A stretch of DNA of 64,000 nucleotides from a virus. The stretch covers positions 19,780-83,779 of IMG/VR virus record IMGVR_UViG_3300044961_000262; one strand, written 5' to 3'. The position numbers were made by a program, and so were the translations under genes. This document shows, piece by piece, positions 8,369-14,896 of the stretch (within the stretch, counting starts at the first letter, position 1; every line of letters begins with the position of its first letter). The notes beneath the pieces were generated by a model, which worked only from the letters and a program-made list of their open reading frames with translations, did no database searches and was not told the DNA's origin.

Positions 8369-8412
8369 TTCCACCTTTTAATCTAATCAAGCATATGACA
8401 AAATTTGATTTG

Positions 8413-8790
8413 TGGAGATGTGGGGAATTGAACCCCAGTCCAGATAACTGCTATATAACAACTTTTATTACATGCTTAAATCTAATATTTCTATTTGATT
8501 AGTATTAAGCTTAACTGAAATTAAGCTTCACCAGTTAATCTTTAATATTATTATACTCCTAATAGATTAACAAACTTGGGAGTGAAAATTAAGCAGCTAA
8601 AACTACTTCTTTTTCTGCAACAGGAGCAAAAGCAATTACCATTGCTTCTACTTTATCAGCAAAAGTCCTAGACTCGTCTGATATATTGTTATTGTTTGCA
8701 TTTGTTTTTTGATAGTAATTTAGATGTAATCTATCATCCATCGCATGATTGTTATAAGGCTAAACGTTACTGTCAAATCCTGTCATCCCC
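8413..8790 (-). ncRNA. ssrA: tmRNA (SsrA RNA) with a predicted 36-residue tag
   Basis: The 5' end GGGGATGACAGGATTTGACA and the 3' end pair as a 7-bp acceptor stem with a G3-U70 pair, the alanine identity element. The T-arm is TGGGG/CCCCA with TTCAATT loop, and CCA is not encoded. The conserved TAAGCATGTA of the 3' H2/H5 side is present. Pseudoknot 1 can be drawn (GATG/CATC plus GATAG/CTATC). Exactly 11 nt after it, as in E. coli, lies the resume codon GCA at 8697-8699. The tag frame runs ANNNNISDESRTF... to ...EKEVVLAA, then TAA at 8589-8591: 36 residues, far longer than the usual ~8-15, but still with an LAA degron end. An 8-bp hairpin AAGCTTAA/TTAAGCTT lies in the 3' pseudoknot region. Expected role: trans-translation and ribosome rescue during infection. 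Confidence 0.93.
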
Positions 8791-8797
8791 TAAATAG

Positions 8798-9064
8798 CTA
8801 ATCTTTATCAGCTATTTCTAATTTCTGCAAAGCTAATTTTTTTTCTTCAATTCTTTGTTTTAAAACTTCATCAAATTGTTCTACAAAATTTGTAAATTTT
8901 TCATACAAATAGTAGTGCATTTCGTTTTTTTTTAAACAAATTTTACGAAATTTAATTAACTCGTCATCTGTTAATTCCGATATTGGTTTTAACGAACCGT
9001 CTTTCATTTTCCAAATGAGTTCTTTTTCATCTGTTTTGAGCATTATTTTGTTAACTGGTGTCAT
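8798..9064 (-). CDS. Unknown small protein of a WKM-G-L paralog family (88 aa)
   Basis: Residues 14-44 (ELIWKMKDGSLKPISELTDD, then ELIKFRKIC) follow the same pattern as the start of the 14621-14896 protein (VYWKMRNGNLINVDDMDNNH). The two are likely diverged paralogs of a small family common in phages, function unknown. A helical, charged C-terminus follows. The gene ends 7 nt before the tmRNA 5' end, so the tmRNA may be cotranscribed and released by RNase P. Confidence 0.6.
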   Translation of the reverse strand: MTPVNKIMLKTDEKELIWKMKDGSLKPISELTDDELIKFRKICLKKNEMHYYLYEKFTNFVEQFDEVLKQRIEEKKLALQKLEIADKD

Positions 9065-9086: not shown

Positions 9087-9116
9087 ATAAAAAGAAGAGT
9101 CTTTCGACTCTTCTCT
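9087..9116 (-). terminator. Intrinsic terminator after the SSB-like gene
   Basis: Perfect 8-bp stem GAAGAGTC/GACTCTTC (9094-9101 and 9106-9113) with a 4-nt loop, followed on the minus strand by TTTTTATT. Located 18 nt past the stop of the 9134-9604 gene, it separates that gene from the 8798-9064 gene. Confidence 0.8.
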
Positions 9117-9133
9117 TTAAATTAAACTAAAAA

Positions 9134-9604
9134 TTAAAATACAGGAGCTTCTTCTACTTGAGATACTACAGTTGTATTTACTGGTTCTACAACTTCGTGT
9201 CCACGTGATTTAAATGCAGATTTAACTGTAGATTCCCAAGCTGGAGAAGCTGTATCTCCGAACACAACCGTAGTATAAGTATTTACAGCGCGAATTCCGC
9301 CATCTTTAGATTCGATGTCGTACTCTCTTACATTACGATTTTCAATTTTACCTTCAAAATAACCTCCCGCTTGAGGATTTCTTTCATTGAAAATAGGTGC
9401 TGAATAACCTGGATCTGGTTGACCAAGATAATTTAGTTCATACTGATTTACAGATGTTGAACGGCATTGGCTCAATGGTTTAGGCATTGGTCCAAATTGA
9501 GTGTTTAACATAGTACGTTCAGTAAATGTAACTGTTTTGTAGTTACGTCCGTTTTTGTCTTGTTTGATAGCTGATTCAGCTGTTTTTACGATAATGTGAT
9601 TCAT
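9134..9604 (-). CDS. Possible single-stranded DNA-binding protein
   Basis: A 156-residue beta-rich protein with an acidic, Val-rich tail ending EEAPVF. Strand-like segments (IKQDKNGRNYKTVTFTE near the N-terminus, EGKIENRNVREYDIESKDGG and NTYTTVVFGD in the middle) resemble an OB fold, and the acidic tail is in keeping with phage SSBs. Codon choice is GC-richer and more regular than in its neighbours, and the gene is monocistronic between two terminators, both suggesting strong expression. No tight SSB signature is present, so the call is by overall look and context. Confidence 0.45.
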   Translation of the reverse strand: MNHIIVKTAESAIKQDKNGRNYKTVTFTERTMLNTQFGPMPKPLSQCRSTSVNQYELNYLGQPDPGYSAPIFNERNPQAGGYFEGKIENRNVREYDIESKDGGIRAVNTYTTVVFGDTASPAWESTVKSAFKSRGHEVVEPVNTTVVSQVEEAPVF

Positions 9605-14620: not shown

Positions 14621-14896
14621 TTAATAAATATCTATTTCACAAGCATCAAATCCACAACAATATTCTCCTAAATGCTCTTCACCACAATTAGGACAAGTTT
14701 GTGAATTATTAAAATCTTGTGCAATATCACCTTTCAGTTTAAATTTAGTTACAGACTTACTATTATTCTGTTGTAACTTTTGGATATTGCGTAATAGCAT
14801 CTTAAAAGCATTTCTAACATGGTTATTATCCATATCATCAACATTTATAAGATTGCCATTACGCATTTTCCAATAGACAGGCGAATTATCCTTCAT
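14621..14896 (-). CDS. Small protein with WKM-G-L segment and zinc-ribbon-like tail (91 aa)
   Basis: N-terminal VYWKMRNGNLINVDDMDNNH matches the pattern of the 8798-9064 protein; these two look like paralogs. Its C-terminal 25 residues add TCPNCGEEHLGEYCCGFDAC, whose Cys spacing suggests one zinc ion. Overlaps the upstream gene by 11 nt. Function unknown; the zinc tail may bind nucleic acid or a partner protein. Confidence 0.6.
   Translation of the reverse strand: MKDNSPVYWKMRNGNLINVDDMDNNHVRNAFKMLLRNIQKLQQNNSKSVTKFKLKGDIAQDFNNSQTCPNCGEEHLGEYCCGFDACEIDIY

Follow-up and report, generated by a model that had tools for sequence, protein, structure and literature searches.

A crAss-like phage genome carries a tmRNA gene with a predicted 36-residue tag, and long tags recur in crAss-like and other flavobacterial phages

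A full-length tmRNA gene with a predicted tag of 36 residues lies in a crAss-like phage genome, within the 64,000-nucleotide stretch analysed here (the window), which is part of an 83,779-base IMG/VR record. Such a long tag is not confined to this phage, and recurs both in crAss-like phages and in other flavobacterial ones. Phages are known to carry tmRNAs, but we know of no function that has been settled for these. We consider it fairly probable that the window encodes a working phage tmRNA that depends on host SmpB and adds a long tag combining a ClpXP-type end with a second element. The features of the gene and its surroundings are collected in Table 1.

Table 1 Features of the tmRNA gene and its transcription unit in the window.
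Feature	Position	Strand	Basis
tmRNA (ssrA) gene	8410-8790	minus	Rfam RF00023, 92.2 bits; folding z -4.8 against shuffled sequences
Mature tmRNA without CCA	8790-8413	minus	
Acceptor stem, 5' strand GGGGATG, carrying G3 of G3-U70	8784-8790	minus	direct reading
Acceptor stem, 3' strand CATCTCC, carrying U70	8414-8420	minus	direct reading
Pseudoknot 1: S1 GATG/CATC, S2 GATAG/CTATC	8711-8742	minus	direct reading and pseudoknot scan
Tag reading frame: 36 codons from resume GCA (8699-8592), then stop TAA (8591-8589)	8589-8699	minus	translation and position relative to pseudoknot 1
H-type pseudoknot 3' of the tag: ACTCC/GGAGT and GTTAATCT/AGATTAAC	8534-8583	minus	direct reading
Hairpin AAGCTTAA-TTTCAG-TTAAGCTT	8507-8528	minus	direct reading and fold
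Conserved TAAGCATGTA	8469-8478	minus	direct reading and Rfam alignment
T-arm	8421-8437	minus	Rfam alignment
Intrinsic terminator with UUCG loop	8341-8372	minus	terminator scan
88-aa ORF just upstream of the tmRNA	8798-9064	minus	ORF list
Terminator of the preceding gene, upstream bound of the unit	9088-9119	minus	terminator scan

The Rfam tmRNA model matches over its whole length (model positions 1-374, E 1.4e-34), and the score is well above the gathering cut-off of 47 bits. The match lies on the minus strand, whereas the first-pass annotation named no strand. G8788 stands opposite U8416 in the acceptor stem and forms the G3-U70 pair of alanine identity. The discriminator is A8413, and CCA is not encoded. 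The full-length match and direct reading together bear out the initial claim that all tmRNA landmarks are present, namely G3-U70, the T-arm, TAAGCATGTA, pseudoknot 1 and the terminator. ARAGORN called no tmRNA in the window. The score is lower than that of most Bacteroidota tmRNAs (92 bits versus mostly 105-198), which, together with the absent CCA, could point to a decaying remnant of a host-derived gene. We regard decay as highly improbable, as all landmarks are intact, the frame is open, the tag is unlike the GENNYALAA type of the hosts, and related phages keep their tmRNAs. A tag copied from the host was rejected on the same difference from the Bacteroidota type.

The tmRNA gene probably shares one transcription unit with the 88-aa ORF; the stop codon of this ORF sits 7 nt before the tmRNA, and terminators lie on either side. 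The downstream terminator starts 37 nt 3' of the Rfam match. The 88-aa ORF has no Pfam or PHROG match, and a Pfam search of ten neighbouring genes returned nothing informative. We note that this ORF and another on the minus strand (14621-14896) have a common W-K-M-[KR]-[DN]-G-x-L motif.

Judged by its capsid (Crass_capsid, E 3e-70), terminase (phrog_6681, E 8e-121) and portal (phrog_6547, E 8e-113), the phage is crAss-like. Its nearest terminases among named phages, ~32-34% identical, belong to human-gut crAss-like phages and Flavobacterium phage FpV4. A prophage attachment-site remnant was ruled out, as the gene is full length and lies in a crAss-like genome. No SmpB was found in a search across the phage record, so tmRNA function would rely on the host. 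A search for tRNAs found none in the window and none in the initial 20 kb of the record. The tmRNA gene is missing from most terminase relatives long enough to judge, and is thus dispensable.

The tag frame begins at GCA 8699, separated from pseudoknot 1 by the 11-nt spacer AAAAAACAAAT (10 nt when a further U-A pair is included), and it encodes ANNNNISDESRTFADKVEAMVIAFAPVAEKEVVLAA, which ends in VLAA directly before the stop codon. The resume codon is nucleotide 92 of the RNA, and resume codons in 29 Bacteroidota tmRNAs lie at nucleotides 90-103. Direct reading and translation thus agree with the first-pass annotation on the spacing of the resume codon, the 36-residue length and the retained degron end. 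By a rough estimate, 36 open codons would arise by chance in ~6% of cases at the base composition of the window, and the open run by itself is weak evidence for a tag. The support comes from the position of the frame, its ending and its relatives. The tag has an Asn-rich start followed by an acidic and hydrophobic, helix-prone stretch, and a single-sequence prediction places a helix at residues 8-35 (mean pLDDT 77).

The unusual length of the tag, also claimed at the outset, holds against both the likely hosts and the database. Cultured crAss-like phages infect Bacteroidota. Among the 29 Bacteroidota tmRNAs, 19 encode tags of 9 residues and 10 encode tags of 10; these are the best-scoring of 41 genomes drawn evenly across the phylum and may favour typical forms. 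Their tags were called by ARAGORN, and the position of their resume codons indicates that the tags were not called too short. Tags of 10 residues are also the commonest in the tmRNA database (PMC11915505).

Relatives were gathered by two pattern scans of IMG/VR and by terminase-guided searches, and the counts come from contig fragments. Records with a crAss-type terminase or capsid contain at least 11 further distinct tags of 26-50 residues (L003, L044, L048, L088, L114, L326, L327, L328, L330, L332 and L451), of which the 50-residue tag comes from a 33.8-bit match, below the family cut-off. This locus (L332, record G080, reverse complement 1501-1770) is a very short tmRNA-like gene of 270 nt, with a consensus resume context followed by the 50-residue frame. 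A separate tag family of 31-34 residues (L005, L437 and L426) was found in records without a crAss-type terminase. Ordinary bacterial tmRNAs sitting at prophage ends made up most of what the first pattern scan matched. Among the matches listed, which give no estimate of prevalence, tmRNAs at prophage ends have ordinary tags, and many other phages, including many marine ones, have tags of 9-15 residues. An [LVI]A(A) end is present in nearly all phage tags compared.

Three other tmRNAs are recorded here as separate observations. A phage-contig tmRNA (L452, 5982-6414, 111.8 bits) has a strongly basic 38-residue tag, AKSKLVNGLLDRFNPSKKVATRKVVARKSVARQLAAVA, unlike all others. Unannotated permuted two-piece tmRNAs were found in Synechococcus phage S-CAM1 (L162, 2943-3257; RF04321, 99 bits) and in cyanophage S-CRM01 (L163, 2940-3249; RF04321, 82 bits). 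The S-CAM1 tag, ANTSDSAANNIVAFSRSTVAA, resembles a cyanobacterial tag of the ANNIV type that is extended by seven residues at its start.

Long tags are also present in cultured flavobacterial phages, with 35 residues in FpV4, 38 in phi14:2 and 30 in phi38:1 and Calle_1. The tag peptides of phi38:1 and phi14:2, which infect Cellulophaga baltica, are GNNTNAVNAQIEANMEAVNAILNLEVAVGV and GNDTDNTQLKANMTVVHNILNGSDALIGSSVQKLAMVA. Of the seven named phages examined that are crAss-like or related, a tmRNA is present in FpV4 and phi14:2 and absent from the other five, all human-gut or Bacteroides phages. The FpV4 tmRNA is unannotated, and 29 Flavobacterium phage records contain it with 99-100% identity. 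The phi14:2 match scores 46.0 bits, one bit under the cut-off. In blastn, however, its 5' part matches the phi38:1, phi40:1 and Calle tmRNAs, with 87-88 bits in the case of phi38:1 and Calle_1. Of these three, only the Calle records carry a tmRNA annotation. We note that FpV4, phi14:2, phi38:1, L326 and L327 have CAGC/GCUG where tmRNA segments usually pair CAUGC/GCAUG, apparently a compensated variant.

Within five families of related phages, the tag frame is conserved as protein. Summed over six comparisons of related phage tags, 37, 34 and 85 differences fall at the first, second and third codon positions, respectively (p 1.4e-7, only indicative because the pairs were hand-picked, one or two per family). 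The tags of FpV4 and L326 are identical at 26 of 35 residues, and 11 of these are encoded by different codons. A NAQ[IV]EANM core, far from the C-terminal degron, is kept in metagenomic phages as well as in FpV4 and phi38:1, and phi14:2 has a weaker version of it. These patterns of substitution show purifying selection on the tag frame in the phage relatives, and conservation of the tag middle argues that the extra residues matter. The pseudoknot-to-resume gap is 9-11 nt in 17 of 22 long-tag tmRNAs. The first-pass annotation named two outcomes that would refute the tag, a resume codon much further downstream and a tag region that varies with loss of its frame; checked in the phage relatives, neither was borne out, as this gap and the third-position excess show. 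For the tag of the window itself, no close relative was found. Close relatives of the window tmRNA were not found by blastn or tblastn against phages; relatives of a neighbouring gene (9134-9604) and of the terminase included none with a related tmRNA, and a helicase search gave one distant match, again with no related tmRNA. The window tag has KVEAMVIAF instead of the NAQ[IV]EANM core. Its overall similarity to the FpV4 tag has p 0.011, uncorrected, and it also resembles the L003 tag (VAEKEVVLAA versus VAEREVAVA; p 0.002, ~0.03 corrected for 16 comparisons).

The frame in the window is open upstream to an ATG at 8741, and an ordinary small ORF of 50 aa could thus overlap the RNA by chance. 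We give this explanation almost no credence. Its upstream part would pass through pseudoknot 1. In 14 of 23 long-tag tmRNAs, moreover, the stretch from the upstream stop to the resume codon contains no ATG, GTG or TTG and the frame is still conserved, so ordinary initiation cannot account for the conserved start. Another explanation is that the tmRNA works, with the additional residues being nothing more than a passive linker, or a consequence of RNA structure in the tag region, and having no partner of their own. Tag lengths among phages span 21 to 50 residues, most families have no shared sequence, and a 12-bp hairpin is predicted within the tag region of the window, all of which would fit a linker. 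We nevertheless think it unlikely, given the protein-level purifying selection along the tag in relatives and the recurrence of the NAQ[IV]EANM core.

In the reading that we prefer, the expressed tmRNA would be charged with alanine by the host enzyme through G3-U70, bound by host SmpB and EF-Tu, and would enter ribosomes stalled on broken mRNA during infection. A tmRNA is highly expressed during infection by mycobacteriophage Wildcat (PMC7474061). Alanine and the phage-specified 36-residue tag would then be added from GCA, with release at TAA by normal termination. The rescued ribosomes would be freed for phage translation, and the unfinished proteins would be passed to host AAA+ proteases. 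The LAA end should serve ClpXP-type recognition. The residues before it may make up a second element for recognition or engagement, whose likeliest partner would be an adaptor or an AAA+ protease of the host, Lon for instance. A broader proposal, which we hold as tentative, is that overwriting of the host tag code is common in crAss-like and other flavobacterial phages, and that it is done with a long, conserved tag whose helical core recruits a specific host factor, either a non-ClpXP protease or an adaptor. If a host factor does read the core, the fate of rescued proteins would be redirected during infection. Alternatively, the RNA could act as a decoy or a regulator, by titrating SmpB or by blocking trans-translation in the host, with a tag that hardly matters, since a tmRNA-like RNA without a tag from phage DS6A inhibits the endogenous tmRNA (PMC4131195, PMC11915505). 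The window RNA, however, has a complete mRNA-like part with correct resume spacing, a stop codon and a conserved degron end, and the tag frame is conserved in relatives, which makes a decoy very unlikely.

Long-tag tmRNAs of flavobacterial phages are mostly unannotated or mis-called. ARAGORN misses 8 of 24 long-tag loci, the window included, and places the tag start too late in 9 more; for short phage tags it agrees with our call in 13 of 13. An ARAGORN survey reported tmRNA in 402 phages among 18,146 genomes (PMC9004378), and the failures on the window and FpV4 suggest that such a survey would overlook these genes. Phage annotation thus undercounts and truncates long-tag tmRNA genes. We found no report of tmRNA in crAss-like phages in the open-access literature. 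The long tags form a recurring class, about three times the host length and conserved as protein. Their presence in cultured Cellulophaga phages offers a direct experimental route to the question of why phages encode tags of their own, and makes the effect of the extra length testable.

The window tmRNA shares the whole anatomy, the resume codon and the degron-like end of the bacterial one-piece tmRNA (ssrA, RF00023), and differs in its tag of 36 residues versus 9-10 in Bacteroidota and a mode of 10 overall (PMC11915505). It is phage-borne and complete, like the tmRNAs of mycobacteriophages, phage G, Melnitz and pelagiphages (PMC4131195, PMC9004378); the phage G tag has 13 residues, versus 26-50 in the crAss-like phages found here. 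FpV4, phi14:2 and phi38:1/Calle_1, which infect Bacteroidota, have long tags like the window, and differ from it in their CAGC/GCUG pairing and NAQ[IV]EANM-type core. The nearest precedent is the Mycoplasma and Mesoplasma tag, which is also longer than usual and has its own protease recognition, by Lon (Gur and Sauer 2008; Ge and Karzai 2009; cited through PMC9382460 and PMC3985003). Mycoplasma lacks ClpXP, and its tag ends in AFA; this end is absent from the window tag, which keeps LAA.
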